NCBI RefSeq assembly: GCF_019649055.1
Contig: NW_026570242.1
Location: 310,001-374,000, forward strand
DNA length: 64,000 nt
Direction of reading: 5' to 3'
Source: Paramacrobiotus metropolitanus
Taxonomy: Eukaryota; Tardigrada; Eutardigrada; Parachela; Macrobiotidae
Below are positions 389-49,200 of the stretch, piece after piece (within the stretch, counting starts at the first letter, position 1; every line of letters begins with the position of its first letter). Under the pieces are notes generated by a model that was not told the origin of the DNA, did no database searches, and worked only from the letters and a program-made list of their open reading frames with translations. Both the position numbers and the translations under genes were made by a program.

Positions 389-3300
389 ATGTCGGGAACG
401 TTTCAAGATCTCAAGGTAAAAAAAACTGTGAAGTACATAGTACTGTAAATTAAACAAGAACCGTTTTATCTTTGAATGGTCTACAATGTGAGATTTTCAT
501 TTGTCACTCAGTTTGTGGACAGTATTTTTACTCGTTCAGTCGTTCGTTGTTGATTTTACCCAGAACTGACGAGGTTCATTGTTCCACGATTTAATTCTTT
601 AGCTCAAGTTCTTGTCTTGACAGCAAAATTTCGAAACTGCAAAGCAGTTGACTGTCGTGTACTAGTATCAGTAGTATGTGATTGCTTGCAGATATCGGAC
701 TTCGTTGACAAGCTGGCGTCGACAATGCGCGGATTGCGAGCGCTTGAATCTCGTTTAATCGACATTACAACTGCCGAAGCGGGAAGAAGTGGTGTTGGAG
801 AAGATTCTGGCGAAGAAGCTGCCAGTTCCTCTCTGAACACTATTAACGGTGAATTGGTAAGTCGGAAATGTCAACTGACTGCCATTTCAAACACCTATCG
901 TGGATGTCTTCCACTACGTATTTCATAACGTATAAGTAATTCTTTAATAGGGAGTAGCCAGCAAAATTCAACACGCGATAGTTCACACTAATTCACAATC
1001 AAAACGCGCAACGCAGAATTATTTCAGTTGTTTAGATCTCGTGCAGGCAGGCGGTACAGCGGGGTAATCGGGGGTATGCGGTCCAGTGGTATTTATTGCG
1101 GCTAAGCCGCAGAGGTTGATAAACAGTTAAACAGAAACAGTGTGAATAAATTCCCTGACGCGTGCGAAATATATTTGGGATGTCGTACATAATCATTAGT
1201 ACCTGTATTTCTGCGTCTACGTGGTATAGATTTAATGTTTGCGGAATGGTGTGGCTTTTTGGTTTTACTGGATCGGGTTTATCTTCAGATAGTTTGCAAA
1301 TTGTGCGTAGAATACTCGTACAGTAATAATAATACAAAGAGATTTGTGAAAGATAGTCACTGTAGTATCATTAATCTATCGCTTTGTTTGGTTTTTGTGG
1401 GGGATTGTGGTTTTCAGACGAATGACAGTAGCAGTTTTCTTAATGCATTAATATTTACAGCTCCAAGCAGTCGCGGTTGTATACGCGCTTCTATAGCAGT
1501 TGACACCAGCCTTGTGAGAAATTAATAATTTTTATCAGTTATTTGTTGCGAAGATCTACACCAAAGTTTCAAACATATTGAATCCCATGTTGCAATCAAG
1601 ACAATCAAAGACCACAATAAAAGAACTTAATCGACGTCTTACCCTAATCAATAATCTTTTTAGATTTAAAAAAATTGCGCAGATACCATAGCTGCCATAC
1701 AGTGAGGCCGCACAGCATGCCCATTCCCATCACGGACACCCACAGAAACATGGACTCAGTCTGCAGACGGTGCGACCGCATCTTATACTGCACTTCGTTC
1801 ATGTGCGTCATGGAAAAAAAGAGGATTTGTGAGAATTCTTGCAGTATAAGCAGCTCTTTCTCCACGGTGGTCAGATTGAAGGCCATCCAGTCGCGTTGGC
1901 GCTGATCGCGATGAGCATTAAAGCTGAGCGTGTTGGTTAGGGTCAGATTAATGCGCCTGTCTGTTTTTTCGCGCAGATTGCTCCCGTGCACGGTTACGGG
2001 TTCGGTGGGTAGGGTACTTTCGAAACAAACTGAATACCTGTCGTCTTTGTCGACGACAAACACGAATTTCCCATTGGTTACAGCGCTCTTCCAGTAGACG
2101 ATCTGTCCCTTTGAATCGGTTACCCGTAAGGAGGTGGGTACGTATGGGAGACCTTTATCCGTGGCTGGTGTCACGTTGTAGAGTCCGTTGATAAATATGT
2201 GGGCTACAACGTCATCGTGTATGCATCGGGGTTTGCTGACTTGCAGGTTGAATTCCAGTGCCAGGGAGGGGATTATGATTGCAAGAAACGTTAAAATGTA
2301 AATACACACGGCACATTTAAGAACTACTTCCCGAGCTATTTTGATTAAATTTCTAATCGCCATTATATTTACTTGGATAATTAAAATTTAGAGAAAGCAG
2401 TAAAAGCAACAGAAATTTGGATGAGTGCGTAAATACGTAAAAGTGTGGCCTTAAACATGTGTGAATGATGTACACCCAGTAGAATTTATAATCGAACATG
2501 GTTTCCAGGCAGAAACAGTGCTTCTCCTCGTACTTTGGGAAGGCTTAAAATTACAGAGACTGATGAGTTTGTTTGTGTACTTACTTACTAATTCTACTTG
2601 GTGCAATTTCAGTTTTGGACGTTTGTTATCGCGAACACTCGAATTATTTTTATTTTTGAGCTGGCCGGCAGCGCGGCTCCGGTCGATTAATTTTTTAAAG
2701 TACATAGGTATCTGTATCGGCAAACCATGGGAAGTTTTGTATGCATATTGCATGTATAATCGTTGATAACTAAAAGCACATAGTATCAAAAGCTCTTGGA
2801 TGTGTAATGGGTTTACGTAGGTAATTTTCTGGATTCGGTATAGCGGTAATTACTGCATTTCTTTCCGAAATTCTCATGCAGTACCGAAATTTCAGTATAA
2901 TGGTACTAAATTAAAATATAAGCTAATTTGGGTACCAGAAACATATCAAGTAAAATTAAATGTCTAGTAAAAGTTTGAATGATAGAAAAAGTACATTCAT
3001 ATCGTTGAGGTAGACAGCGGCATTTCGTGGCACCAAGTGTGCACATTAGTATAATGTGCACACTTGGTGCCACGAAATGCCGCTGTTTACCTCAACGATA
3101 TGAATGTACTTTTTCTATCGTAATTTATTGTTTGTAATTTATTGTCGTTTATTGTCGTTTATCGTATTTATTGTTTGTAAGCTGTTTGAAATCCCCTGAA
3201 CTTGTTACTGTATCTTGCGCAGGTTTCTTTGCTGTCTGATCTTACTCTGGTCACGAGTTAATAACGAGCGAATAAAGTGATAATGAGTAGTTTTTGCGCA

Positions 3301-4052
3301 TCTACACGGAAGATTCGATACATTTCTTTGATTTCTCGTGTTTTTTGCAGGAAGATCTGGAAATTATGACCGGCATACTTGCCAGCAAAGAAGTTATTCT
3401 ACGGATTCAGCAAATATTACGGGAGAAAAGGAACAAACGGCGCAAATTTGTCTCTAAAAAGGTCGAATCGTGTTCGTCGATTCCCATCGACAGTACCATA
3501 ATTCGAAAAGTTCCTGCTGGAAGTTTTAGCCACCTCAGCAGAGAAGTGAACAAAGCGGCAGAACAGCAGCCTACAAGCAGATCAGCCAAACGGCGGCAAC
3601 GGAGACTGCAACGGATTGCTCAGCTGTATGAACGGATGCAAAATTGTCGCAAGTTGTATAATATACGAGCTGCCGCAGCTGTGGACCAGTCTGGCTTTTT
3701 GACCAACTTGGATGATATGGAGAAGAAGTTGAAATATTTAAGGGAAAAAATAAAGAGACCAAAGAAACCCGATTGTGTGAATGTAAATGTGGATATCGCG
3801 AGTATACCTTTGCCTAGCGAACCATTTGAAGAGCAGTGGAGATCAGAAATCACGGCTGTACTTTTTGGAATGGATGAAGATGCATTTCGCTCGTTCTCCG
3901 CGTTGCAGTCAAGAACCGTTGGACAGTTATTGGATGTTCGAAGGCAATGGGATGCATATGTTACCGGCAATGAGAAAGGGTCGTCCATACCGATTTGCTA
4001 TTTCCTTCCTCCTTCGAATCCAGTGAATGGCTGGGCAGCATACAATTCGTAA
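389..4052 (+). CDS. PDCD7: PDCD7-like U11/U12 snRNP 59K subunit
   Basis: Exons read as 389-415, 692-856 and 3351-4052, all joined in phase 0 at GT-AG sites (gtaaaa/cttgcag and gtaagt/ttttttgcag), giving about 297 residues. The last exon has a basic coiled-coil stretch and then the C-terminal PDCD7 signature: an LFG-D/E element, a 'VRRQWDAYV' segment, an 'IP..(Y/W).LPP' loop and a final 'NGWA' close to the stop. Human PDCD7 ends in the same order of elements. In known animals this protein is the 59K component of the U11/U12 di-snRNP of the minor spliceosome, acting in the nucleus. The protein is shorter than the human one and lacks its proline-rich N-terminus. The second intron (857-3350) is unusually large for this window and contains the antisense TMED10 gene, so a missed exon is possible. 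The family call rests on the C-terminus; the upstream exons are less certain. Confidence 0.7.
1644..2363 (-). CDS. TMED10: p24 family cargo receptor, TMED10-like
   Basis: A single uninterrupted frame of 239 residues. It has an N-terminal hydrophobic signal segment (about residues 15-36), a GOLD-type lumenal domain with the two family cysteines (in 'PRCIHDD' and 'SVCFES'), a membrane-proximal helix, a transmembrane segment near residues 203-225, and a short cytosolic tail ending 'FFKSKKIID'. The tail matches the aromatic and di-lysine signals of p24 delta proteins (human TMED10 ends in a very similar KKLIE). p24 proteins cycle between ER and Golgi in COPI/COPII vesicles and select cargo such as GPI-anchored proteins. 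The gene lies on the opposite strand inside the large intron of the PDCD7-like gene. The absence of introns, unlike its neighbours, could mean a retrocopy, but the frame is intact and all motifs are present. Confidence 0.88.
   Translation of the reverse strand: MAIRNLIKIAREVVLKCAVCIYILTFLAIIIPSLALEFNLQVSKPRCIHDDVVAHIFINGLYNVTPATDKGLPYVPTSLRVTDSKGQIVYWKSAVTNGKFVFVVDKDDRYSVCFESTLPTEPVTVHGSNLREKTDRRINLTLTNTLSFNAHRDQRQRDWMAFNLTTVEKELLILQEFSQILFFSMTHMNEVQYKMRSHRLQTESMFLWVSVMGMGMLCGLTVWQLWYLRNFFKSKKIID
2981..3119. repeat. Near-perfect palindrome, 68-bp arms
   Basis: Bases 2981-3048 and 3052-3119 are reverse complements with only one mismatch seen (gtagac against gtaaac), separated by the 3-base spacer gta. 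It lies in the intron of the PDCD7-like gene, between TMED10 and the last exon. It looks like a fold-back MITE or a recent inverted duplication. The 3' flank to about 3180 carries short direct repeats of ttattgtttgtaa / ttattgtcg type. Confidence 0.9.
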
Positions 4053-4781
4053 AATGCAGCGATGTGTTATTGTACTTAACACTATAATACGGTTACTTTC
4101 GTCATCTGCGATGAAGAGTGTAATGGTTATATAGTGGAAGAAAGCATATGGCTTATGGAACTTTGGATTTATCTACGTAATAAAAACAATTCACTCCAAC
4201 AAAAAATCAATATTCTAGCGGATGGAAGTATGTATTTTCAGCACAATAGTATTTCAGAATCTTGAATTCTTAATTCACAGTATACTGTTTGTTGTCCTCT
4301 AATTCCTCTCCGACACAAGTTAGAAATATCGTTCTTTTAATCAAGAAAGCTTATAAGCGATTTTTACGTTTCGTAAACCGCAATACAGAATAACGATGCA
4401 ATTCTTAATTGGAAAGCATGTTTTTTGTCGCCATGAATCATTCAAGATCGCGCTTCACAGAAAATATTGATACGATACATACCTTATAAAAATAACAACA
4501 CAGAATAATTCCCGTCGGCTCCTCCCAGAACCTTAGTACCTTGACAACAAATGTTGGGTTTTGATAATTCAAACGTTGGCAAAATTTATTTTAACTGCTT
4601 GCTAAGCGTGACTAATCATCATGTTATTGACCGAACAGCGTTGAATGCGCCACCATGAGTAAGAGAAACTGACCGCATTTTGTTTTCAAGGTAGTCTTTT
4701 TTGGTTTTGACCACTGACCTTTGGCCTACACACACACGGTACTCGGTTTCTGCGTTCCCTATTCGTCCAACAACTTGCTAA
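4053..4781. other. Intergenic, nothing recognised
   Basis: AT-rich sequence between the PDCD7-like gene and the coiled-coil gene. No convincing frame, RNA gene or repeat seen. It presumably holds the 3' UTR of one and the promoter and 5' UTR of the other. Confidence 0.5.
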
Positions 4782-7044: not shown

Positions 7045-8190
7045 TCACCAGTGCGTTTTCTGCGCTGATTCCAGCATCTCCAACAAAAGCTTCGGCACGG
7101 TGACCTTTCCAGCTTCTTTGAGTATGAGCCAAAACCGCCTGGTCATACCGTCCAGTTGTCTCAAATGGGGCAACAGCATCAAAAGACTTCCGATTCTACT
7201 GATATTATTGACATACTGACACAAAGTTTGCATAACCATCTCCCTGAGTAAATTGCGATTGTTGGGATTCTCCAGTGGACACCCACCGTTGAGCAGCACC
7301 AGGCATTTCATCAAGACGTACTCTTCTCGTGTTAGCCTGTATTCATTGAAATATTCTACCAACTGAATGGTCTTTGTATATACATCCTCAAAGCACGCCT
7401 CTGTGGCCATATTTGATGTGAGCATCAAGTTGGTCGCAAAGGTCAGCGATTTGCAGTTGGGAGAACTGCTCTCCATGGAGCGTGCGGCGAAACTGAAGAT
7501 CACGATTTCACACCATGTTGTTTGCAGCAAATGCATCTGATCGTTGAGCGGCAATTCCAGAAATCCCGGTACTAGTTTGGCCCAGCTGATAACGGCCACT
7601 AATTCTCGATCAACAGCATCCAGGATGGCTGTCTGAACTTTTGATCCGTTATCCAATGGCTCGGATATTGCTGCCGCTAAAGGTGCGGGTTCATTAGACA
7701 ATAAAGTAAACAAAAGTCCATCCAGTTCTGCGGTCGGATTTCCTACAAATATGGTTTAAAAACAGTGCCTTGCATTCTTCGCTACTTTGCAGTGCGCGGT
7801 AATGAATTTTATCACCTCTGGTGTTATAGGGATTTTTGGGAGGGAGTGGTCTGGAGGTTGTCGGCTCGGTGGAAGTCGGCTCGCCGTGAACATTTCGTTT
7901 GTATTTTTGACGGCCGCCTCGAACCCTGTCGAGTCTGACACCTTCCTTCAACATCCCAACAGAGAGACATTTTCGATATCGACAGGCTTGGCAGGCTTTT
8001 CGTTGGCTTTTGTTTATGGGGCAATTTCTGCTCTTTCCGCATTTGTACTCAATACTGCCTTGGATGGTCCGCTTGAAAAATGCTTTACAAGCTTCACAGG
8101 AATTAACGCCATAATGATAACCACTGCTAGCGTCCCCGCAAACCAGGCAGTGTTTTTTATCGTCCAGTTTGGTAGAGGATAGGTAGTAAA
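7045..8190 (-). CDS. Estrogen-related receptor (NR3B) type nuclear receptor
   Basis: At least two coding exons: 7747-8190 (DNA-binding domain) and 7045-7676 (ligand-binding domain), joined in phase 1 across a roughly 70-base intron. The zinc-finger domain has all eight cysteines and the P-box 'CEACKA', which is typical of ERR. It is followed by the ERR-diagnostic extension '[21 protein letters not shown]' up to its last residue. The ligand-binding domain has 'VDRELV..I.WAK..PGF' (helix 3), 'DQM.LLQ' and a C-terminal 'LLLEMLES' activation helix. ERRs bind TNAAGGTCA-type sites as orphan receptors and in flies switch metabolism to glycolysis. The ligand domain is clearly divergent outside helices 3-5 and 12. 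The 5' coding exon was not resolved; the start given is the splice acceptor (ttggtgcag), and there is no convincing ATG in this exon. Confidence 0.85.
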
Positions 8191-9593
8191 CTGCACCAAA
8201 AAGTTGGTGCACAGAGGCACGGACTTGCTCAGTGAAATCGTGAGTTGTCAATACAAACCCACAGATCGCCAAATAAACATGCGGCACCAAAGCCTCACAT
8301 TCAAGAGATATGGCGAAAACTGCGGTGGGGGTTTGAAGTTTCGGCCAACGATAAAAACAGTTCTTGTAGTCGCATCATTAGCTACTGTATTTAATTTCTG
8401 GGCTGCGTACAGTTCAGAAATCTTGAATTTCTGTACATAATATTAGTGCATTCAGTTGCAAGGTAACATGATCTGTATGAAGAGGCTACTTGTAAATATT
8501 TTGCATCTACCGGTAAGTATTAGTCCGGCAATATCAAATCTAAAACATGAATTTACCTGTATAGTTTATCTGTATAATTTACCTACTAATAAATTACCTG
8601 TGTTTGCTGATAAAAATTTACACACGTTTCTGTCAGTCGGCCGATAACTTTGGTTCTGCCGAAAACTGACTTCACCGAAAATAAGCTGCAAACGTTTTTC
8701 CGGTAAATAAAGTGAGCAAACAGTTTGCTCACCATTTTTTTTTCCCATGCCCGTACAGCGAGTTTTAGCACATTTTTGCTTTTCAAGGTTCTGAAACGAA
8801 ATACAAATACACTACATACATAGTTATCCTTTCATAACGTTTTTACTCTAGAAGGAAGAATTCCCGGCCTCCCGCAAACCGAAGGTGAACACTAGCGCCA
8901 AATTTCAATCGTTGTTTAAACTTACTACGTACTTCCGGTCGTAATTTGTTGTTCTCTCTTTTTGTGTTGCGGCGGAGCCGTGCTCGTACAGCAATAATTG
9001 TAGCTGCAATAATATTATTACGTAGACTGTTACTCTAACAATGTAAGTCTTTGACTACAAATGCCGAATATCCTGCAGCTGTAATAACCACGAAAATTAA
9101 ATGCGGGTTGGCCACTTAAAAAGTAATTTTATTCGCTATTCAAAGCTCAAAGGATAAACTTGCCAAAAAAACAGAGCACAAGAAATACGCCACAAATTTA
9201 TATACAAAGCATTTCTTACGTAGAATAACTAGATGAGCATACTAACCAACGAGCAGCAGCAACTCGCAAGAGCCAAAACACTAATGAGAGCATCAATCTC
9301 GGTTCAGATTCAAAACGTAATCAACACAGCAACACTGCAAATGCTAAAGCTGTACAAAAGATACAGCAACTACATCTTCGCCATTGTCTTAGACAGTTGC
9401 CGTTTTCGAAAGCAGCTCCTTTTATCACTGGCAAAGTAAGGGGCTGTTTTTAATTTGGGTATACTCATAATCCGATTTATAGTCAACCGACTCAAAAGGC
9501 TTCGGCATTGAGGTCATCCAAAAACCGGCATTCTGTCAACCTACAAGCAGATTAAAAACGGAATGTGTGCGAAACTGATTGTGATAGGCGTAC
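8191..9593. other. Gap upstream of ERR, unassigned
   Basis: Should contain the 5' exon and promoter of the ERR gene, which I could not place. A 68-codon frame at 9233-9439 (+) begins with ATG, but its A-rich composition and lack of similarity make it doubtful. No RNA gene or repeat recognised. Confidence 0.4.
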
Positions 9594-12500
9594 TCAGCCT
9601 ATTTGTGGAGGTCGCGATGGTGGGTACTGTGGCCCTTGGCAAAGCGGATTCTGGAGCCACTTCGGACAGCAGAACCAAAAGTAGCTGGGAGATTTTCTGT
9701 CAGCGGCCGTCAGATGTCTACATGTGTCGATTGGACTGTCAAACATATCCGGATAGATGTAGCAGTTCGCATTCATAATACTAGTGGGAGGAGGTGGATG
9801 CGGCACCATTGGAAAAGGATAAGGAAGAGCACATTGTGGCGGTAGAGTTGTTGTGGTTGTGCGGGTTGTCCTCGTCTACAGAAAATTCTAACGGTTAGTA
9901 TACTAAGTTACTGATCCTCTAATTAACAAATTCATATTTACAGACGACCGCCTGTGAAAAATACGACAGGGTGATCGAAAACCTTTTGTAAGTACTTCAT
10001 CATTCGTAGATTGCTAACTGGTCTGCTCGCAGGCAACGAAATCTGAATTACCGTCGTTAAAGGTATTATTGTAGTTGTGGTATGAGTCGTCAAGGTGGTG
10101 GTAGGCGTTGTGGTGGATTTAATGGTTGAAGTGGTAACGGGAGGGATCGAGAAGGTTATCGAAGTGGCTGCTTTTGCAGTCATGGAATTGGCAGATTCCG
10201 CTGTCAACTGCAACTTTTCTGTCATGACAGGCAAGGCTCGGTTGCTGACTACAGTCGATGGGGCTACAGCTGTAGCGGGACTTGGCAGGACAACTGGTTG
10301 TATTGTCGCATTTCTAGTCGTCACACCCGCTGAATTCATAACCGCACCCGATGACGTGGGCGTAGAAATGGGTGCGGCGTATCTGTCAGTCGTTGATGCT
10401 GTGGCAGCAGCTGTCGCGAATGGCGTACTAACCATGACAGGGGTTTCAGTGGGGATACTTACTGACACAGTCGCTGTAAAGAAGCGAGGAACTATAGTGC
10501 TTGTAGTAGCGCTGTTGTTCGGCTGGATAACAGCCACAACTGAGTTGACTGGTGGGGTTGGAGTGGCTTCCATTGACCAATTAGTTCTAGCCGTAAACGA
10601 TGCCATGGGGGATTGTTCTGAAGTCGTCCAAGCAGGTCTCGTGGTGGCCGGCCTTGTGGTTGTTGTCACAGTCATAGCTGAAGTGATTGGTATGGTAGTC
10701 GTTGCGATAGTTGGGGTAGTCGTCGTAGCCGGTATCATTGCGGTCGCCTTAGTGGACGTTGAAACCGTTGCCATGGTGGTGGGCAACATGGTTGCGGGCA
10801 ACGTGGTCGTGGTAACCGGTGTAGTGGTTGTCGGTTCGGAGGTCATCGTAGTGGTCGGCTCCATGGTCGTCGTAACCGGCGTCGTTGTGGTCGGTTCGGA
10901 GGTCACAGTAGTAGTCGGCTCCAAGGTCGTCGTAACCGGCGTCGTTGTGGTCGGTTCCATGGTCGTTGTAACCGGCGTCGTAGTGGTCTGCTCCATGGTC
11001 GTCGTAACCGGCGTCGCAGTGGTCGCCTCCATACTCGTCGTAACCGGCGTCGCTGTGGTCGGTTCGGAGGTTGCAGTAGTGGTGGGCTCCGTGGTTGTCG
11101 TAACCGGTGTAGGGGTTGTCGGCTCGGAGGTCGTCGTAGTGGTCTGCTCCGTGGTCGTTGTAACCGGCATCGTAGTGGTCTGCTCCATGGTCGTCGTAAC
11201 CGGCGTCGCAGTAATCGCCTCCATACTCGTCGTAAACGGCGTCGCTGTGGTCGGTTCGGAGGTTGCAGTAGTGGTCGGCTCCGTGGTTGTCGTAACCGGT
11301 GTAGGGGTTGTCGGCTCGAAGGTCGTCGTAGTGGTCTGCTCCGTGGTCGTTGTAACCGGCGTCGTAGTGGTCTGCTCCATGGTCGTCGTAACCGGCGTCG
11401 CAGTGGTCGCCTCCATACTCGTCGTAACCGGCGTCGTTGTGCTCGGCTCCGTGGTCGTCGTAACCGGTGTCGTTGCGGTTGGCTCAGTGGTCGTCGGAAC
11501 CAGTGTAGTGGCTGACGGTTCGGAGGTCGTCGTAGTGGTCGGCTCAGTGGTCGTTGTAACCGGCATCGTAGTGGTCTGCTCGATGGTCGTCGTAACCGGC
11601 GTCGCAGTGGTCGCCTCCATACTCGTCGTAAACGGCGTCGCTGTGGTCGGTTCGGAGGTTGCAGTAGTGGTGGGCTCCGTGGTTGTCGTAACCGGTGTAG
11701 GGGTTGTCGGCTCGGAGGTCGTCGTAGTGGTCTGCTCCGTGGTCGTTGTAACCGGCATCGTAGTGGTCTGCTCCATGGTCGTCGTAACCGGCGTCGCAGT
11801 GGTCGCCTCCATACTCGTCGTAAACGGCGTCGCTGTGGTCGGTTCGGAGGTTGCAGTAGTGGTGGGCTCCGTGGTTGTCGTAACCGGTGTAGGGGTTGTC
11901 GGCTCGGAGGTCGTCGTAGTGGTCTGCTCCGTGGTCGTTGTAACCGGCGTCGTAGTGGTCGCCTCCATGCTCGTCGTAACCGGCGTCGCAGTGGTCGCCT
12001 CCATACTCGTCGTAACCGGCGTCGTTGTGCTCGGCTCCGTGGTCGTCGTAACCGGTGTCGTTGCGGTTGGCTCAGTGGTCGTCGGAACCAGTGTAGTGGC
12101 TGACGGTTCGGAGGTCGTCGTAGTGGTCGGCTCAGTGGTCGTCGTAACCGGCGCCGTTGTGGTCGGTTCGGAGGTCACAGTAGTGGTCGTCGGAAGCGGT
12201 CTCGTAGATGTCCTGTGCGTGGTCGTTGTAACCTGCATCGTAGTGCTCGGCTCCGGGGTCGTTGTGACCAGTGTCGTTCTGGTCGGCTCCCTGGTCGTCG
12301 GAACCGGTGCAATGGTTGTTGGCTCCATGTTCATGATAACCGGTGTTATGGTAGTTGGCTCAGTGGTTGGTGGTGTATTTAGGGTCATGACGATATCGGG
12401 TACTTCTGTTGATAGCGGTGTCGCTGTGACCACTGGATCTAAAGTAAAAAATACAACATTTTCATTTGAGTACTGATTTTCTTTGTCAGCTGGGGGGGGG

Positions 12501-13166
12501 GGCACGACGTTATAACACTCGAGCCAGTTTAGGTCGGTTTTCTTTGTGAAAAAAAAACCTTTCATGTAACTGCAGCGATGTTTGGGACTACAGGTAATTG
12601 CGCATATCAACTGCATGTGGTGTACACGTGAATAGTGGCGACAATACTGACACTATCTGCACTTATCGAATATGGAACGCTCTGGTCAGGTAAAATTGAT
12701 TCGCTTTCTGAACTGTCTAAAGCCGCCTCGCTCGCTGCGTAAACAGTTGTTCCTAGAGTGGCGTAATCCAAAGAGAAGGGTACTCCCTTCGAATAATACC
12801 GTTCGGTGGCACCTCAACAAAAGCCGATGATGGCGTCGATATTGCACTGGTTAATATACTGTCCAGGGAGGTCGTGGTCAGGGTTCTGAACAAACTTGAT
12901 AATGCTGTAATTCTTCCGGTTTCAGTGGCTGATGCATCCGTAAACGGGTTAGTCCGAAAGGTCGATCTGTAACAAACTCCAGCAATACATCTTCCCAGGC
13001 AGCGCCCATGGCATGTAACGGGCTCATCTGTGGTGGTGCGTGTTGATGGCTGTAAGTCATCATAACCATAAGCTCCTGCAGATTTTTTAAACCGATGTTG
13101 AGAAAGAAAATTAGTGTTGCCTCTCGCTGAACCTGTTGCCGTTAACGAACCGAACAATGTTTCGTC
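9594..13166 (-). CDS. Mucin-like Thr-rich secreted protein A
   Basis: Exons read in transcript order: about 13166-12753 (a Cys-bearing region with 'CHGRC', 'GRC' and 'AGVC'), 12438-10052 (about 795 codons, nearly all Thr, Pro, Val, Glu, Met) and 9875-9594 (C-terminal module). The repeat exon is a TTTT/EPTTTTPVTTT array with a 64-residue (192 bp) higher-order period, expected to be densely O-glycosylated. The last exon opens 'TRTTRTTTTTLPP', then a six-cysteine module with spacing C-x22-C-x13-C-x16-CC-x8-C around 'PPPPTSIMNA', 'CYIYPD' and 'CRHLTAAD'. The same last exon and intron position occur in gene B (14688-16910), so these are tandem paralogs. The signal-peptide exon and the junction between the first two exons were not resolved. 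A cuticle, gut-lining or mucus role is inference only. Confidence 0.7.
11059..12150. repeat. 192-bp higher-order tandem repeat in mucin A
   Basis: The anchor string tcggttcggaggttgcag recurs at about 11059, 11251, 11647 and 11839, giving spacings of 192, 396 and 192 bases. A second block beginning gttgtgctcggctccgtgg recurs at about 11434 and 12028 (594 apart). Units are built from a basic coding period of about 11 codons, all in frame. Confidence 0.85.
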
Positions 13167-14687
13167 CTAAAATTAAAATATTAACACTTTGATGCAAACC
13201 AGAAACGTAAACATCTTAGAACGTATGCGGAACAAGCGAAACAAGGCTGTACCGCGTGCGCGGAAGGCGGATTCATGGATAAAAATTCCATGGGAACAAA
13301 GATTAAAAATATCGTTTGTATCACATGCATCCATGCGGTGGTGATAATAGTAACTCACTGATGGCTTTTTTATTGCACATGATAACTTTACGGGAATGAG
13401 GTTGGTACAGTTCACACTTTTGTAAAGTAAACTTAAACTCTTAAGAAAAAGAGTGATGGATCCAATGGGTAAGTGTGAAAGTTTTGGAGAGTACGCACGC
13501 CAATATGTATTTACGGTTTGCGTTGCTAAAGAAATGACTAAATTATTTGTTTGGCATTAATTTTTTGTTTCTGCTTAGGTGGGAAGTTAGTTAGGTAGAA
13601 GGTATGGTAGGGAAGTTCAAAATTTTATAAACACGGATTTAAAGTTTTCATGTTTTTATTTCACCAAAAGGAAATTAATCTCTTTTCTTTCGCTTCGGTC
13701 AGGGCCCCACTCAGTAGTAATGAGCGAAATCTGAGCCTTCGTTCAGTGCAGTCTTGACGTAAATCATTGTTAGGCATTTAGTACGTCAGTATGATCACAT
13801 TATCTTGCACCACGGCGGTACGAGTGCCTTTTTCTTTTCTTTGTATCTGTACTCCTGAATAGCAATGCACGTTTTCGTCCATTTTTTGTGACCTTTCCGG
13901 TACTATATATACTTGCGCCTTTCACTCAATAATTTACATTCGTCATTAGAGTTTTTGCGCACAGAAATCTTAATTTCGGATCACAAAAGACTTATGCATG
14001 CCGTTATGTTACGTTATGCAGGTCACGATATGCGGTAGATACCACCATGCAGGTTTTGCATGCATAAACCATAGTGCCGAATGGTAGCGGGATGAGAAAA
14101 AGGCAGTGCCGGTAACAGTTGCGTTTATGTTGAACTTTAACGTGTCCGATCACCGAAAATTATATTGTATCGACCTACTGTATTGTACATATGTAATTAG
14201 TCTTTTTGACTGCATACAATTTCAGCCGAACTGTTCTTTCACTTTTGTTTGCCAAATCGCTGAAAATGAGAGTTGAAAATTGCTGTTTTGATGCGCTTAC
14301 CGGCAGTGACTCTTTGTCAGTTATACGCTGCAGTGCGGTACTAAAGGTAACGCAGGCCACAATAACGGCTCTAGAAGTCAATGTATTTGCAGACAAGTTC
14401 ATCGACGCATAGTAACTACCGATTACTGAAATTCCCAGTAATTAATTTTTGTAGATAGATCATGCTTTCGTATGTGGATTTTACTATACGAGTAGGCAAA
14501 TAGTTTTTGTTGACAAATTCCAGTGCTCCGCCAACATAACGGGTCGTCGGACGTCGAAACTATCGGAACACTGTATACTGTTCGCGGATATTCTGGTAGC
14601 ATTTAATAGTAGTGAATGTTTTCCGGTTCGAGAATTTATTTTCTCAACTCGAGGTAGCATTGACATCCTTGGATTCTACAAAATCTG
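13167..14687. other. Gap between mucin genes
   Basis: Should hold the 5' exon and promoter of mucin A (minus strand). Frames at 13173-13415 (-) and 14175-14412 (both strands) are short and mutually overlapping, with no support. A tatatata box near 13905 lies on the plus strand with no gene following it. Confidence 0.4.
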
Positions 14688-16910
14688 TTATCCGGTCTTT
14701 AATGGTTTCGCAGGGGGATACTGAGGTCCTTGGCAATTAGGATTTTGAGACCACTTGGCACAGCACCACCAGAAATAGCTTTTGTCTGGTTTGTCGGCGG
14801 CTGTTAAATGTCTGCAAGTGTCAAGTGGGTTGGCATACGTATCCGGATAGATATAACAGCCCGCGTTCATAATACTAGTGGGAGGCGGTGGATTTGGTTT
14901 CATTGGGAACGTATATGGCTGCGCGCACATTGGAGGTAGCGTTGTGGTTGTTGTTCTGGTTGTCCTTGTTGTCTACAACGTGCTCTTTCCCAGTAAGTGG
15001 TTACCTTGTTAGCAAACTGCGCATAATAATATTAAGGCAAACAGTTACTAACAAAATTGCAAGGACTTGCACTTTACTGTACGGTTATATGTATTTTTAT
15101 ATACGTTTACGAAAGGTGATTATTCGTTTGTGCTTTCCTTTCCTTGTTTAACGAGAAAGTAACACAAATTACCGTTGGCGTTGTTGTTCGCAGCGTTGTA
15201 GTAGTTGGTTTCGTCGTAGTTGTTGGTGTCGTTGTTCTCGTAGTACTTGTGGAGGTTGTTGTCGATGTCCTGGTAGTGGGTGTTGTGGTCGTTTTTGGTG
15301 TGGTTGTTGGCGTTGTCGTTGTCATTGTTGTAGTCGTCGTTGGTGTAGTTGTGGTTGTCGGTGTTGTGGTTGTAGTGGCTTCCGTAGTGGTAATTGGCTC
15401 TTCTGTTGTCGTAGGTTCTTCTGTAGTTGTCGTTTCTGGAGTAGTCGTCGTGGTGGGCGTGGTTGTTGTCGGCTCTGTTGTTGTACTGGTAGAAGTAGTC
15501 GTGGTCGGTGTTGTGGTTGTTGGTTCGGTAGTTGTCGAAGTCTCCGTGGTTGTGGTAGGAGTTGTGGTCGTTGTCGTTGTGGTGGTCGTAGTCGGTGTTG
15601 TGGTTGTTGGTTCTGTGGTGGTCGTAGTAGGCGTGGTCGTTGTCGTCGTGGGTGCTGTTGTTGTGGTAGTTGATTCGGTAGTGGTAGTAGTAGGCGTGGT
15701 CGTTGTCGTAGTTGTCGTGGGTGTTGTTGCAGTAGTTGATTCGGTGGTGGTAGTAGTAGGCGTGGTCGTTGTCGTGGGTGTCGTTGTGGTAGTAGGTTCG
15801 GTTGTGGTGGATGTGGTGGTAGTGGGCGTTGTTGTAGTCGATGTGGTAGTCGTAGACGTAGTTGTTGTTGTCGGAACGGTCGTTGTACTGGTGGACGTTG
15901 TGGTTGTTGTCGTACTTGTGCCCGCGGATGTCGTGGTCGGCGTTGTCGTCGTGATGGTCGTTGTCGATTCAGCTAAGCGATTAACCAACAAAATTTAACT
16001 ATCATGGCTAAATTCTCGTAAAAACAATCTCGTAAAACCAACCTAGCAAATAATTTTCATTGCAAAATCTTTTAACAGTATTTTAAAAGTGTTACTCAGT
16101 ATACTGTTAACGCCACTCTGTACTTGGTGCTCGGGTCCATGTTGGTGGAGTCGCCGCCTTTGTTCTGAACTGCTGCTGGTCGCAGCATGGTCCTGGTACG
16201 CATACACCTGCTTCGATGTAGGTCAGACCGGTATTGTTGTAATTTCCATCCAAATACAGTGCTCCTCCAGTGATACCGTCGTCCGTTTCCAGCTCAGAAC
16301 CATAGTCCCACGGAGTTCTGTTCGTGCCGGCACTGTTATACTCGATTCTGCTACACTGACAAACCGTTAAATAACCCCAACGTTCCCACTGAAATCTGTC
16401 ATCCGCTACAGCACAAGAACTGTGCTTATTGGAGTCCGCTCCATATACAACAACACGGTCATCTAGAAACATTGTATAGAAAATATTAGAAATAATAGCA
16501 ACTCCAATGGCTTTGGTGGTGAATTTTCGTGGTCTCCTTACAAAGGAACCTTTCTTTTAACTTGCTTTAATATTACTTTATTTAGTAGATGTAATTTACG
16601 ATATAACTGTTTTAAACCGCATTGAGCTTTATGCAGTAAATCGTTCTGTTTCAAACTACGGTCAGGAAGTGGCCGATGAGATGTGAGCGACGATAAGTTG
16701 GACGACATCCCTATTTATAAAATAATAGTACTTGAGAAATTAAGCCAACTTGCACCAACCTATGTCCCCACTAATTACAGGCTCTGGCAGAGTTATTATG
16801 GAAGCAGCAGGAACCCCCACGCTTTTTGCTTGAGCGACTTGAGCATCAAACTGACCAAAACTCGGCGCAGCTAAGGATAAAATTGCCAGACACCACAAGA
16901 AAAATCTCAT
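14688..16910 (-). CDS. Mucin-like Thr-rich secreted protein B
   Basis: Exons in transcript order: 16910-16779 (signal peptide, 44 codons), about 16470-16112 (Cys-containing N domain ending with 'GVCVPGPCC'), 15972-15173 (about 267 codons, almost pure TTTT/PTTTT/EPTTT) and 14972-14688 (C-terminal module). The signal peptide has a hydrophobic core ('FFLWCLAILSLAA') and a plausible cleavage after 'SFG'. Junctions two and three are phase-consistent (C|CT and phase 0); the junction after the signal exon is off by one as read, so a small exon may be missing. The last exon carries the six-cysteine module with exactly the spacing of gene A (C-x22-C-x13-C-x16-CC-x8-C) and about 60% visible identity. 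The repeat exon is far shorter than in A and lacks the 192-bp superstructure. Secreted, heavily O-glycosylated protein inferred; family not recognised. Confidence 0.75.
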
Positions 16911-17606
16911 ATTTAGTGCACCAGCTTTTGATAAACACAGAAACTTTCGTGCAACTCAAGCCAAGAATCAGCAACAGGATTCTTCATAATCTGGTAGTCA
17001 GTAATACGAGCATGGTTTGTAATCTTCGAGAATGGTGCTGGTATGTCCAAAAATACTTCGCTTGGAGTAACACAAAGTCGAACGAACTTGCTTCAAAATT
17101 GATAGAGTATCACGGTGAAAACAAAGTACCGGAAGTATGTAAAGGGTTCTGGAGGTCAGGCCAACAATAGAAAAGCGGGCCTGTGTGCTTTCCAGTGCTT
17201 GGTAACTTGATACGAGATTAATGAACGTTTCCGTTGCGCGTTAGTAAACTGCTGCTGGAAATGTTTTATAAAGCTGTTATTATGTTCTATTAAGTATTAT
17301 AGATTGGCATCTACCATCAGAGTTCTGAACTTCTGTGTTCCGAATGCGCGGCCTAAATTGCTGGGCGCGCAGCTAGCGATTTTGAAGTTATTAACTGGTT
17401 GTACAGTAAATAGCATGCTTTTGTGCAGAAAGCACTTTGGAAATCTTTGCTATTTCAGTCAATACCAAAAGACAATTTTTTTAATTCATTTCTACATACA
17501 TAAGACATAACGTTGTGCAAATGATACTAACGAGTAACAATTTTTGCGCGACTTTATACCAAGTGCCAGACTGGCCGCTGCTGACTACATAACTCGCAAA
17601 AAATCT
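16911..17606. other. Upstream region of mucin B
   Basis: Presumed promoter of the minus-strand mucin B gene. No frame with support and no repeat recognised. Confidence 0.4.
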
Positions 17607-17676
17607 GCCGATTGCGGGAATCGAACCCGCGTCCTCTGTACTCTAAGGCCGAGAGAGGCACCACTAGGCTATCGGC
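17607..17676 (-). tRNA. tRNA-like Pol III gene, isotype unresolved
   Basis: Read on the minus strand this is 70 bases with a 6/7 bp acceptor stem (GCCGATA with AATCGGC), a perfect 5-bp T-arm around TTCGATT, an A-box TAGCCTAGTGG and a B-box GGTTCGATTCC, followed 3 bases later by a T6 Pol III terminator. The middle does not fold into a normal cloverleaf. One reading gives a 4-bp anticodon stem with GCC in the loop but no U33. Another gives a perfect 5-bp stem with a 16-base loop and no D-arm. It could be a decayed tRNA, a tRNA-derived SINE head or a non-canonical tRNA. An 8-bp hairpin (17684-17703) lies just upstream. Confidence 0.6.
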
Positions 17677-17954
17677 GTACAGCAGAATATCGTAAGATAT
17701 TCTCCGTACAGCCGGCAACCTAACGAACAGAGCCACGCTCCTAACACAAGGTATTCGATGGTGACAATACTGGGACGGGATAGTCAAGCAAGCTTGCTTC
17801 GCTCGCTTGCGTTTCGTAGAAATGGTTCGAAATCATTGTACCGCAGTGTATTGCCTGACCGTAAGCATTGTGTCGTTTGACCATACTGTTATAAGCATAC
17901 ACTTTTTTCAACGACGCTGTGCGAAAGACGTTAACTTAAAATAGGTATTTCGAA

Positions 17955-36129: not shown

Positions 36130-37085
36130 AATCCTATACGGAAAGGTCATCATCACAAGCACTTCGCTGGCGTTTTTACTGATTTTAAGCATTTTGCTAA
36201 CTTAAAAATAAAAGGCATCTTGCACAATATGCTATATGTAAGTTTGTAACACCTGTTGCTCTGCATCGAATAATTTATAGCATCTGTGCCTATATTTTTG
36301 AAGTAATTTTTTTGAAATACTGTAATATTTTCGAAGACAGTTTTAATAGAAACATCAAAATTATTTTTAGTGCGGTCACTTTAACCTTTAGATTCATTTC
36401 TGCAGTGGTTGCTGCAGTGTCCGGCTTTTGCTGACTGTAGTAAATCTAAACTGGGTGCGCTGTTAAAGTGGTTTTACGTAATTTTGCTCTTTGCACTTTA
36501 TATCTTTTTTCGTAAGCGTTTTTTTTGCGCCGGCCTTGCAGATTATTGTCAGACTGTTAAAAGTTAGTTATTGTTAAAAAGCTGTCAAAAGGCTACGGCT
36601 AGCCGATTTTGGCTGCTATTACTGTATAGAGAGCTGTTATTACTAGCTGTACTGTACCTCTTACAATTCATAACATTGAAGCTGTATCAAAATATTTGTT
36701 CGCAAAGACATTGTGCGGCTCACATGATGCCTAGCTCGATTCCAACAAATAAAGCAGTAAACAAGAGTGCCGGTTATCAAACACTGGTGAATTTCATAAT
36801 GCGACAAGTAAATTTGATTTTCCCAATAAGTTTACCAAGATCACCACTTGAAAAAGGGGGCAAAATCTGTGCTGTTTGTTACAAGTTGTCATTAGACTAA
36901 CCCTGTGTTTCGCTTTCTTCATAAAGCGTTCCTTGGTTACTTATATAACTTGCACGGGGTTGAGCCACAAAAAGTTTAATATATATCAATTTTGTAGTTC
37001 GTAACGGATGCAACACTGTGAACCGAAGTTCGATGTCTAAAAACTTCACTTTTGTGACTGAAAAACTGTTAATTTTCAAACTGAC
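36130..37085. other. Intergenic, nothing recognised
   Basis: Between LITAF copy 3 and the phospholipase. A 109-codon frame at 36571-36900 has no support. Presumed promoter of the downstream gene. Confidence 0.4.
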
Positions 37086-39739
37086 ATGATGGCGGAAAAC
37101 GAACGCAAAGCATCGGACGAGCGCCGAGAAACGATCAGCCGTATTCCCGCTATTATTTCTCAAAACCAAAGTCCTTTACACACGGTCAACACTCGTACCG
37201 TGCTGCTTAAGCTAATTTCCGAAGGATGTGACGTCAACGCTACTAACATCCTGGGAGAGACGCCGCTGCACGCGCAGGTCATGCGAAATAACTTTGAATG
37301 CATTATTGGTCTATTAAGCCGCGGGGCGGAGCTAGATCGTCGCGATTACAAAGATAATACCCCGTTGCATGGGGCGATTCTCTATAACGCCAAACCCATT
37401 ATTGCAAAATGCCTGGTGGTGTTCGGCGCTAAAACCACCGCCACCAATCGTGCCGGTGAATCCCCGCTGGGCATCGTGGAGAAATCGATGCCCTCCAAGC
37501 GGCGGGATGAGCTCATGGTTATCCTGAGTATCGGGTCGGGAACTTCGGTGCATGCGACACCGCGCACGCAGCGTATATCGGAGATTCGACAGCAGTTGCG
37601 CGATGAAAGCCAAGCGCAGGGCAAACTGGATGAAGATGAAACGGAAGGGACATCGCAGACGCCAACATCCAGCAAACGGAGAAAGCGGGAAAATGTTTTG
37701 TGTTTGGATGGCGGCGGAGTACGTGGGTGTGTAGTTAATAACAAAGGTCACAAGGTTTCAGCCACGTAAATGCGAAAATGCATGCTTTAATTAAAAACAT
37801 TATTTTTTTAAGATTTTTTTCGACTAGAGTGTGTATCAGATGGCATATTCACATGCCGAAAGCGAGCTTTTTTTACGTTTCATTTGTTTTATCTTGCAAT
37901 AATAATAATGACTGCAATTTTATTAATACTTACTTATTAATAATTTCAGAATACACACGTAATTTTATTAATATGCTGCATTTTCGTAACAAAACGCCAT
38001 TTACAGGATGATACTCATTCAGCAGTTAATGGCCATAGAGGAGCAGCTGGATAAACCAATAATTGAGTATTTTGATTGGGTATCGGGAACGAGTACAGGA
38101 GGAATACTGGCTTTGTGCCTGGCAAAAGGTAACTCTGGGCTCTCATTACCACCATAAGAACGTGGGTTGCACAGAACGAATAGCGCTTTTTAGGCTACAA
38201 CGTCCGCGAATGCATGGCATTGTATTTCCGCATGAAGGATCTGGTGTTCAGTGGGAGACGACCGTATCGAAGCGAACCCTTGGAGGAAATGCTAAAAGAC
38301 CTCTACGGACCGGAAACACCGATGAGCGCAATCGATAAGCCGAAGTATGTTACTTTTGTGTTAAACAGAAGCAAAGGCTAACACATGTAACCGAAGCATT
38401 GTTGTCCCAAGCCATAAATTTTAATTAATCATGTACAAATTTAAATATTTGGTAAGGTAGTTAATACGGCGCTTAAATAGGGTTCTGATTGCTTATTTAG
38501 ACTGCTGATTCCGGCATGCATGGCAGATCAGTTACCGTTAAATCTGCACTTCTTTCGCAACTACTGCCACCCACGCGCAACACGAAGTGTGCATAATCTT
38601 CAGCATTGCTTGCACGGTCCACGGCGCAGCGAGGATGGTACAGTTTAGGAAACTCCTTGTTGAATATTTTGCGGAATAAAAAATTTTTAATCTACTGGTA
38701 TCCATCAGATTGTCACACACAGTTAATGTGGAAAGCTGGCCGAGCCACCGGGGCGGCGCCTACATACTTCCGCAGTTTTTCCAGTTATCTGGACGGCGGA
38801 CTTATTGCAAATAACCCCACACTGGATACAATGACAGAAATTTTTGAGTTTTATCAACATTTAAGGAGTGAGGTAAACGAATTTGGGATACAGCATTCAC
38901 AGAGTATTGTGGCATGTCTATATCATTTTGACGCTATTTCGCAAATGTGTTCCCGGATTGCTAAAACCTCTTTTGTTTCTAAGGGGATACCCGAAATTCC
39001 GGAAATCGGTGTTGTAGTTTCCTTAGGTACAGGGATAGCGCCGCCTGAGTGTGTGACGTATTTTGATGTGTACCGTCCAGAAACTTTTCAAGAACTGAAA
39101 ACAGCGCCGAGGATATTGACTGGGTTTTCGACATTAGGACGGATGATTATAACGCAGGTCATCGAATTAGTTTTAAGTAAAATTATGTCCCGCGTAAAAC
39201 AGCTTGTAGGAAAAACGTTAGTTTAACATTTAAGTATCGCTAGGTGAACGGATGTGTGTCAATTTTAGCCGTTTCCTAACGTTAAGTTAACGTTTTTTTT
39301 GCTAGTTGTTTTTACTCGGGTGTCAGTATCTTGCCAATCTACGTGTGTTTAGAAAAAACTGATGGCATTATCTGCAATAGTAGTCCAAAATGTACGATTA
39401 CCTGGCGGATGCTTGTAGGCCACAGACGCAGATGGAAGAGCTGTGGATCGCTCGCGCGCCTGGTGCGAATCATTAGGAATACCATTTTTCCGGTTCAGCC
39501 CGTTATTGAATCGTTACGTTGCATTAGACTGCACCGACGATGAAATAGTAAGTTTATCCCAAATCGCAGTTAAGTAGCTGTTTTGCCTCACTTCACCGCT
39601 GTGATCACTAAAAGAGTTAACGATTTCCGAAATTTAGCTTATAGAAACACTATGGGAAACCAGATTGTATGTGATCAATCAAGCCATAAAGGTCAAACGT
39701 GTCTCTGACATTTTAAGGAAATCCGTGCAAAGTCAGTGA
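37086..39739 (+). CDS. PLA2G6: Calcium-independent phospholipase A2 beta-like
   Basis: Seven exons: 37086-37726, 38007-38128, 38194-38344, 38501-38637, 38709-39157, 39419-39547 and 39638-39739, all phase-consistent, 576 residues. The N-terminal part has about three ankyrin repeats ('GETPLHAQV', 'DNTPLHGAIL', 'GESPLGIV'). The patatin domain starts 'LCLDGGGVRG' (oxyanion), has the nucleophile in 'SGTSTGG' and the catalytic Asp in 'YLDGGLIANNPT', followed by 'VVSLGTG'. The C-terminus 'DGRAVDRSRAWCE' and 'LWETRLYV' matches PLA2G6. It hydrolyses the sn-2 acyl chain of phospholipids for membrane remodelling. It is shorter than the mammalian enzyme (about 750-800) because of fewer ankyrin repeats. 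The exon 5 donor (gtcatc) is weak and chosen from homology; reading through gives a stop at 39226. Confidence 0.9.
39185..39320. repeat. Intron segment duplicated at 44289-44423
   Basis: About 135 bases at the exon 5/intron 5 edge of the phospholipase gene recur in the same orientation at 44289-44423, with roughly 90% identity by eye (shared core gtgaacggatgtgtgtcaat and taacgttaagttaacgtt). Confidence 0.85.
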
Positions 39740-46280: not shown

Positions 46281-49200
46281 CTACACCCGCGACCTGGCCA
46301 CTAACTGGGACGCCGACGGATGTGTGGAATTCTGCACTGGGTTAAATCTACTTCTGGCAGCGCTGTTTTTCTGAGCGAATCTTTCGGCTGCTCTGGTATG
46401 CCTAGCGCGTGCCGGTTGTATTTTAGGTGCAGACCCGGATTGTGCTTGAGCGCTGACAATGTTCAGATACAAAGCGATCACGTCCTTCTCTTCCTGCAAT
46501 GCATAAATACTTTTGGCTTACGAAAAAATCATAAATAAAAATACTTATGAGACAAACTTACCAAAGCCAAATGATTTTGTAGTACCGGTGACAGCTCGAC
46601 AAGAGCTCGGTTTTTGTTGTAAAAGTAAAACACCAGGACTCTGCAAAACCCGTATAAAAAATAATTATGTAAAAGTATTTATCGCCGTTACGATATAACA
46701 TGTAAGTTGTAAAAACTCAGCAAAGCGTTCATACCGTACAAGTCTATAAAAATCGTCTACTGGTTTAGCATTTTGTCCATGGACGCTTACAGTAAAAATA
46801 CAATGACAAAAATCAGGACAGGAGGCATGATGAGGATATCCATAATCTCATACAGCAAAGGTACTGTATCTTTGAAACGTATTATCGCTGCCGCAATAAT
46901 GTCGGGCTCCGGACACAAATCCCGAAACGGTCCACAGTCCTTTGATGGGAGCAATCTGGAGTTTCCAAAACACCGTGGACGTTATGAAAAATATCCCCAC
47001 GATTCTTATAATACCAGATATTCGGTTGCTGAAGTTTTACAAAAAGAATGCAACGGTCTGCAAATCTTTTCGCAAACGTTTTCGTTAAAAGGAGTTGATT
47101 AATGATGTTGGAAGTTATACCTATTATATTATACAAAAATCTTAACTGGTTTTCTGATTTACAAATAACTCTTACAATGTAATTACGAACGCCACGGACA
47201 AGGTGCATAAGACAAACGAAAGCAGGAGAGCTGTGCAATAAATGGCATGCGTTCCTTCGTTGCCACTTCCAAGGGGAGCTGATTTATACATCTTCGAATA
47301 CCTTATAATCACCTGCAAATGTAAAACGTATTCGCTTTCGTGTTAATATGCTACAGATGTTTAGATTCTTACTGGTGATTCTACAGAAATATTCTAGACA
47401 TGTATTGTCGTTTGCGCAGTTTACTCCAGGTAGATTTTTCGCTTGTGTGCTTCTTTGTGTTACATAAAAGTATGCAAAGTGATAAAACAATATAAGTACG
47501 GTAATATAAAAATTCAGATAAATCGTAGTACGAAATGAACTTTGAGTATCACATATTAATATTGAAATTACACGAAACGTAATCATTACCGTATCGCGCG
47601 CAAACAAAAGCAGGGTCGTGAGAATGGCGATTGCACACATAATTGGGCTATAATAAGTAGCCAGGAAGGTGATAACTTGCAGATAGATAATTCTTTGGGT
47701 CAACAGATCAGCTCGGAAAACTAATTGTTTACGTGTGAATAATTTTATAATAGGCGATAAGAATAATCCAAGCACCGATATTCCAAGCTCAAATACCAAA
47801 TTCATCACAGCAAGCTGATAAAATTTTTGCGAAAGACTTGTTTCCCAACACGACATTTTCTGAAAAGAGAGAAAATTAGCAAAACCAGTACTAAAATTAA
47901 TCCATACATCTTACTCGCTCAGCCGCACAGTCTTTCTTGTTCTCAAAATTCACCGCCCCAATTGTCTGGCCAGACTCGTTAAGGATCCAGTAATAATATA
48001 ATGTACCAAGGGTACCGAAATTTAAACAGATACCCCTAATAAACAATTCCGATTAAGAATTTGGTATGTAAAGTGATCAGACAAATTTTTGGAGTATTCT
48101 TGTTGTTCGTCAAGCACACTGAGAACTTACTTAGCTAAACTGGAAAGTAATTCCCTTCATAGGTCATATATTTTTCGTATTTGCTGAGTACAGAAAATAT
48201 CACCGGAAAAACAAAATTCAACAGAGTGATGATCATGGCCGGAGAAAGCTCGATTGCGTATTTCTGATGTATATCCAGATCTTCCTAAAACCAGACAAAT
48301 CGTTGTAACGTCAGTGGAAATCTTTACCCGAACTGTAGCAACGACAGGCTGCAAAAGGACACGAAGTATCTTAGTATAGTAACATTTTCATGTATGTTTC
48401 GTTATTGTTAACAGTTTAAACTGCGGCATTTATTACCTTTCTTACAGGTTGGTATGGTTATTTTGTCAGCAACATACCGTAAATGCTGGATTCGAGTAGA
48501 ATAATTAGAACTTAAGCTTCAGCATACGTTTATCTCAAATACACCGGCAGACGAATACCACGTCAAAATAATTGCAACTCACATAAATGATGCGATTCGT
48601 TTCCGGTTGCCTGTTTGTTTTCAAGTTAATTTCAATAAACTCCAGATAATACCACAGACCAGCGCCTAGCCCGGCGGTAAGAAGAACAATGAAGGCATTG
48701 ACAAAAAACCGCCGGATGTAGATGGGTCGCCGGAACTTTTCGATGCGTCTGGCTGTTATTAATTTTTCGCGCAGCGTTGTAAGTAAATCCTGTCGGTTCA
48801 GTTTGATTGCGTCTTCGTCGTAGACAGTGTGCTCCCACATAAAGAAGACGGTATCGCAGTATTTGGGCTTGCCACCCATTGTGGATGTCGAAACAATTTT
48901 CCCATAAGACTGCGTTATCCTACGAAAGAAAAAATAACTATGAACAATCAATCAGTAGTACCGCTAAAAATCAAAATTGAATGCTATATTGTCACACCAA
49001 TATTTAGTAACTTTTTCACGCTACCATACAAAGAACGTGGAAAAATATGAGCGCACGTATGAAGATATATATGCAGCTGATTAAATAAGCAAACTATGTA
49101 TCTGCCATCGTGCATCCTTGAAAATTAGTAGTGTATCATCTGAAAAAAGCAACGGAATACTTACGAGTAAGTTATCACGACAAACTGGAACAGGTAAAAG

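Follow-up and report, generated by a model that had tools for sequence, protein, structure and literature searches.

Two adjacent tandem genes on the minus strand of the Paramacrobiotus metropolitanus genome each end in an exon that encodes a module with six cysteines (Cys), placed behind a threonine-rich, mucin-like stretch. They lie in the 64,000-nucleotide window analysed here (bases 310001–374000 of contig C22), and we call them gene 1 and gene 2. An earlier note on this DNA had proposed that the pair defines the module. We find that the feature is real and was correctly described, and that it is more general than that note had it: the module is present at seven loci in the genome, with variable spacing and in at least three architectures, some of which have no Thr-rich part, so the pair alone does not define it. 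Together the copies appear to be a small family, found on proteins that seem to be secreted. Gene 2 also carries, near its N-terminus, a six-Cys module of a second kind, which likewise has seven loci. The genome that we searched has 169.8 Mb in 533 contigs; C7, C22, C35, C39, C71 and C106 are our own labels for contigs within it, and coordinates without a contig label are window positions (Table 1).

The C-terminal module is a family of seven copies

Both last exons in the window encode the pattern C-x22-C-x13-C-x16-CC-x8-C (spacing 22, 13, 16, 0 and 8 in each gene) and share the words PPPPTSIMNA, CYIYPD and CRHLTAAD. The gene 2 module finds the gene 1 module at an E-value of 3.4e-35 in a whole-genome search. 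Searches with four of the seven copies as queries (gene 2, C35, C22c and C22d) agree on the same seven loci: the two window genes, C7a, C7b, C22c, C22d and C35. The match to C7b has an E-value of 9.8e-23 with the gene 2 query and is non-significant (E = 1.7) with the C22d query. As a control, the reversed gene 2 module gave two genome matches, neither of them significant (best E = 0.58); the resemblance of the two window modules thus exceeds chance. Six weak matches with E-values of 0.13–0.72, two each from the C35, C22c and C22d queries, were dropped: those on C21, C301 and C70 lie in open frames that read as retroelement-like, the one on C5 lies in a 64-amino-acid frame without the Cys pattern, and those on C189 and C74 lie in frames resembling C2H2 fingers.

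In an alignment of the seven copies (83 columns) all six cysteines are kept in every copy, with spacing C-x20-22-C-x13-C-x16-17-CC-x7-8-C. Twelve columns are invariant: the six cysteines, two prolines in the first loop, YP after the second cysteine, a threonine before the third, and a tyrosine ahead of the CC pair. The aromatic residues next to the cysteines include this tyrosine and a YFW that precedes CC in five of the seven copies. The exact spacing and most of the shared words that the earlier note reported hold in the closest copies but not across the family, in which neither PPPPTSIMNA nor CRHLTAAD is invariant. The C-terminal module is conserved at the protein level. Between the two window genes the proportion of nonsynonymous differences (pN) is 0.18 and that of synonymous differences (pS) is 0.74, and between gene 2 and C7a the values are 0.11 and 0.78, with synonymous sites saturated.

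The genes around the module are built in different ways. C7a can be read as a leader exon ending in GAT/gtatgt (a slash marks the boundary between exon and intron), a phase-0 intron with acceptor acag/ACC, and a module exon, with no Thr-rich exon between them. C7b reads as C7a does, with donor GAT/gtaagt and acceptor gcag/ACA, and in C35 the leader and the module share a single exon. As we read them, these three are short leader-plus-module forms. In the other four copies the module is part of a long chain rich in Thr or Pro: in C22c a leader exon is followed by one exon that encodes a Pro-rich stretch and then the module, in C22d, where we located no leader, the module comes after sequence rich in Pro and in Lys/Thr, and in the two window genes it follows a Thr-rich exon. 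In four copies an intron can be read directly before the module; the Thr-rich exon of the two window genes is upstream of this intron. In a tree of the modules, the group formed by the window and C7 copies is separated from the other three in 89% of 200 bootstraps. Support inside this group is weak (50 and 57% of 200 bootstraps), and therefore we propose no sequence of gains or losses for the Thr-rich exon.

The two window genes

The last exons of genes 1 and 2 are 74% identical, and 71% identical over the 79-residue module part. As the earlier note had seen, both sit behind an intron at the same position; it is a phase-0 intron with the shared donor ACG/gtaatt and an acceptor tag/ACA or tag/ACG. 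A BLASTN comparison of the two 3' regions gives one significant alignment, of 73.5% over 257 bases (E = 4e-42), and it sets in where the last exon does. No other alignment has an E-value below 2.7, so the introns show no likeness, and the duplication is therefore not recent. The description of the two genes as a tandem pair is right as to their position, but they are not equivalent: the N-terminal six-Cys module is in gene 2 only (genome searches with it gave no match at gene 1), and for this reason they are not simple duplicates.

Gene 2 can be modelled as four exons, with intron phases 1, 1 and 0, that make a single open frame of 524 amino acids. Its parts are, in order, a leader, the N-terminal module, a stretch of 280 residues with 71% Thr and 11% Pro, and the C-terminal module. 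The earlier note had placed the end of the feature at the base that is the ATG of the proposed leader exon. By our reading, the mature product, without the leader, would have exactly 12 cysteines, and each of them is inside one of its two modules. The Thr-rich exon of gene 1 is longer (799 residues, 44% Thr and 13% Pro). Tandem arrays are present in the Thr-rich parts, and both genes have the long Thr/Pro-rich stretch that characterizes a mucin. Both repeats draw on all four Thr codons (counts for ACG/ACC/ACT/ACA are 126/100/63/57 in one and 47/41/33/72 in the other). Splice sites were picked by consensus and by phase compatibility, so the phase agreement of the exons is not independent proof of the models. 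For gene 1 we also drew a tentative upstream coding stretch and leader exon. A genome search with this upstream stretch matched only itself and found no paralog, and a match to DUF4787 (E = 0.048; 14.3 bits, where the cut-off is 27) was rejected.

Table 1. Positions of the exons and modules of the two window genes and of further module copies elsewhere in the genome.
Feature	Position	Strand	Remarks
Gene 1 tentative leader exon	13253..13330	minus	MHVIQT...; donor GCG/gtacag; drawn by eye
Gene 1 tentative upstream coding stretch	12753..13166	minus	open frame after ttttag acceptor; exon end provisional
Gene 1 Thr-rich exon	10052..12438	minus	12-residue-type repeats with 36-base and 192-base periods; donor ACG/gtaatt, phase 0
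Gene 1 last exon	9594..9875	minus	stop included
Gene 1 C-terminal six-Cys module	9639..9833	minus	first to sixth Cys
Gene 2 exon 1	16760..16910	minus	starts with the ATG at 16910; hydrophobic leader, by eye a signal peptide, then about 30 residues; donor ATAG/gttggt, phase 1
Gene 2 exon 2	16124..16462	minus	N-terminal six-Cys module, C-x17-C-x-C-x50-C-x4-CC; phase 1 on both sides
Gene 2 exon 3	15173..15972	minus	Thr-rich mucin-like stretch; donor ACG/gtaatt, phase 0
Gene 2 exon 4	14688..14972	minus	last exon, with stop
Gene 2 C-terminal six-Cys module	14733..14927	minus	first to sixth Cys
C-terminal module, C7a	C7:989718
C-terminal module, C7b	C7:990884
C-terminal module, C22c	C22:742511
C-terminal module, C22d	C22:744568
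C-terminal module, C35	C35:651253
N-terminal module	C71:360860
N-terminal module	C22:749691
N-terminal module	C106:433447
N-terminal module	C22:1206845
N-terminal module	C39:334173
N-terminal module	C106:387646-387950		in two pieces

A second six-cysteine family at the N-terminus of gene 2

The N-terminal module has seven loci, which are exon 2 of gene 2 and six further genome matches; three weak matches (E = 0.44–1.3) were left out of this count. Stop codons interrupt two of the matches, with two TAA codons in the C71 match and one TAG in one piece of the split copy on C106. Six copies were aligned, omitting this split copy, and have 14 invariant columns and spacing C-x17-20-C-x-C-x41-50-C-x4-CC. 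The copy at C22:749691 is in an open frame of 395 amino acids that runs into Ser/Thr-containing sequence (positions 3481-4665 on the minus strand of C22:745401-753000). This copy is 5 to 7 kb from C22d and C22c, on the opposite strand, so that both module families are neighbours twice on C22.

A comparison of the two modules by hhalign gives a probability of 0.2%, and a common origin is unsupported. The N-terminal module profile has no match in the PDB at E ≤ 1, and Pfam gave one weak match only, to Lectin_like (E = 0.094, in one of the six members). A structural model of this module is poor, with a predicted local distance difference test score (pLDDT) of 53 and a predicted template modelling score (pTM) of 0.47.

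Searches for known domains

The earlier note knew no named domain with the spacing of the C-terminal module, and our searches agree: none of the seven members matched Pfam at E ≤ 10. NCBIfam gave one meaningless match, to one of the seven modules (E = 0.2). Sequence matches in the PDB, including casein-kinase (best E = 0.2 and 0.28), were rejected as chance; those to the kinase cover about 31–37 residues around one C..YP stretch. A Foldseek search of the PDB with a model of the module found no match at E ≤ 10; with seven sequences in the alignment behind the model, a new fold does not follow from this. A scan of viral contigs returned 38 pattern matches but no relative, and a phage search found none.

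Among the listed titles of open-access papers on tardigrade mucin, mucin-like, Cys-rich, Thr-rich, cuticle, lineage-specific and secreted proteins we found no description of such a family, which is not proof of its absence from print. In one tardigrade paper (PMC12941274) mucin and cysteine-rich wording occurs only in the reference list, and the word mucin is absent from the main text of a study of sex-biased expression in P. metropolitanus (PMC11191345).

Neighbouring genes in the window

Downstream of the pair, at 7045-8374 on the minus strand, is a nuclear hormone receptor gene (C4 zinc finger, E = 4.8e-31; ligand-binding domain, E = 4.2e-22). Farther along are an emp24/p24 (GOLD) family protein at 1644-2387 on the minus strand (E = 2.9e-22) and a PDCD7-like frame at 3291-4052 on the plus strand (E = 1.8e-9). 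On the other side of the pair, a tRNA-like stretch with a T-arm (GGTTCGATTCCC) lies at about 17600-17680 on the minus strand, where ARAGORN and Rfam report no gene. At 37062-39226 on the plus strand, ankyrin repeats precede a weak match to patatin and what we read as a GGGVRG motif; this looks like the gene of a calcium-independent phospholipase A2. A TMC (transmembrane channel-like) domain is at 47284-47910 on the minus strand (E = 2.9e-9).

What the modules may do

A secreted matrix family, as the earlier note suggested, is plausible. We see about an even chance that the products of the two genes are secreted mucins with O-linked glycans, and that their disulfide domains are self-contained units that attach to matrix or glycan. 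The Thr-rich stretch would probably be O-glycosylated and form a stiff, hydrated stalk. The C-terminal domain would be small and closed by three internal disulfides, an arrangement favoured by the even number and the invariance of the six cysteines and by the apparent single-module forms. Because it apparently also exists as a short secreted protein, the domain would be an independent binding unit and not a mere stalk end. Its most likely role would be to anchor the mucin in an extracellular layer such as cuticle, gut lining, egg coat or mucus, perhaps through a glycan or other matrix component bound by the conserved aromatics, as with trefoil and peritrophin domains. Gene 2, with an unrelated six-Cys module at each end, could bridge two partners. 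Several points weigh against the proposal of secreted, matrix-binding mucins. The leaders were assigned by eye, without a signal-peptide predictor. The C7b frame is also open through its intron (197 amino acids), and an unspliced reading would add cysteines. The model of the C-terminal module, built from the seven-sequence alignment, is middling (pLDDT 74, pTM 0.62; main helices at 34-40 and 51-61), and the Pfam, PDB profile and Foldseek searches did not tie the module to any known binding domain, by fold or by sequence.

The position of the module at the end of the mucin genes, its richness in cysteine and its adjacent CC pair would also suit a polymerisation domain, in which interchain bonds between cysteines link mucins into a gel or a hardened coat, like the Cys-rich ends of gel-forming mucins. 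We consider this fairly unlikely, as the six cysteines are an even set invariant in seven of seven copies, there are apparently free single-module forms, and by our reading mature gene 2 has no cysteine outside its modules. Small Cys-rich secreted peptides often have defence or signalling roles, and the leader-plus-module copies C7a, C7b and C35 could be soluble peptides of this sort (antimicrobial, protease inhibitor or ligand) with the attachment to mucins being secondary. The lack of a Pfam match, a composition that by eye is not strongly cationic, and the four copies on long Thr- or Pro-rich chains make such an origin unlikely.

A trefoil or CBM14 domain that has diverged beyond the reach of sequence profiles would explain why the module has the trefoil order of cysteines and a similar mucin context. 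We think this distinctly improbable: the loops are far longer than those of trefoil, the CBM14 register has no adjacent Cys pair, and besides the negative Pfam and Foldseek results none of the genome's 12 trefoil and at least 140 CBM14 matches is at a module locus. It is also conceivable that these frames do not represent expressed genes: the Thr-rich part would be a simple DNA repeat, open by chance, and the joins would be chance splice-like sites. Other frames, one of them on the opposite strand, are open across both repeats too, and the splice sites were picked partly by phase. Against this, the use of all four Thr codons in both repeats, the protein-level conservation of the module at seven places and the similar introns in front of it at four make the idea very improbable indeed.

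Returning to secreted, matrix-binding mucins, a more specific version is possible but doubtful: that there are two undescribed tardigrade six-Cys families, of which one is a trefoil-like mucus or matrix lectin, made both free and on a Thr-rich stalk, that a tardigrade lineage independently assembled a system of the trefoil-and-mucin type, and that gene 2, with a different domain at each end, acts as a bivalent linker in the matrix. In animal genomes, orphan families of secreted proteins are common. With two unnamed families of Cys-rich domains defined (each has seven loci in this genome) and their exon boundaries given, orphan secreted proteins of tardigrades could be annotated, and such annotation would let others test which extracellular layer these proteins build. 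Should the domains be shown to bind chitin or mucin glycan, they would become candidate constituents of the cuticle, the egg coat or the lining of the gut in tardigrades.

Comparison with known systems

Secreted mucins generally have a leader, a long Thr/Pro-rich stretch and a small Cys-rich end domain, and in this respect the kind of protein is familiar. The domains themselves match no Pfam model: the end domain here is a seven-copy family of its own, and gene 2 adds a second unnamed module.

The trefoil domain (PF00088) has the Cys order C-C-C-CC-C, with spacing of about C-x9-10-C-x9-C-x4-CC-x10-C, and mucin-fused trefoil forms exist in frog. The module has the same Cys order in seven of seven copies and is, like trefoil, a small and apparently secreted domain that occurs both alone and on Thr-rich mucins. 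It differs in its loops, which are 20-22, 13, 16-17 and 7-8 residues long compared to about 9-10, 9, 4 and 10 in trefoil. It has no PF00088 match, and the 12 PF00088 matches in the genome (E ≤ 1) are all elsewhere. Trefoil peptides are described, in excerpts of PMC8125380 and PMC6769565, as mucus lectins with an exposed aromatic/Pro patch.

The module also resembles CBM14, or peritrophin-A (PF01607), a six-Cys extracellular domain that stands beside Thr-rich mucin stretches in ecdysozoans, in being a six-Cys domain joined to a Thr-rich mucin stretch. An excerpt of PMC4013664 gives the CBM14 register as CX13-17CX5CX9CX12CX7C and notes that peritrophin-A domains occur in some insect mucins. This register has no adjacent CC pair, whereas the module has one. 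The module has no PF01607 match, and none of the PF01607 matches in the genome at E ≤ 0.01, of which there are at least 140 (a lower bound, with 150 of 177 candidates scored), is at a module locus. A dense run of CBM14 matches within about 50 kb of contig C30 (~304800-353200) may be a cluster of peritrophin or cuticle genes. The module thus has neither the profile nor the spacing of a trefoil or CBM14 domain, yet we think that it functions as these domains do.

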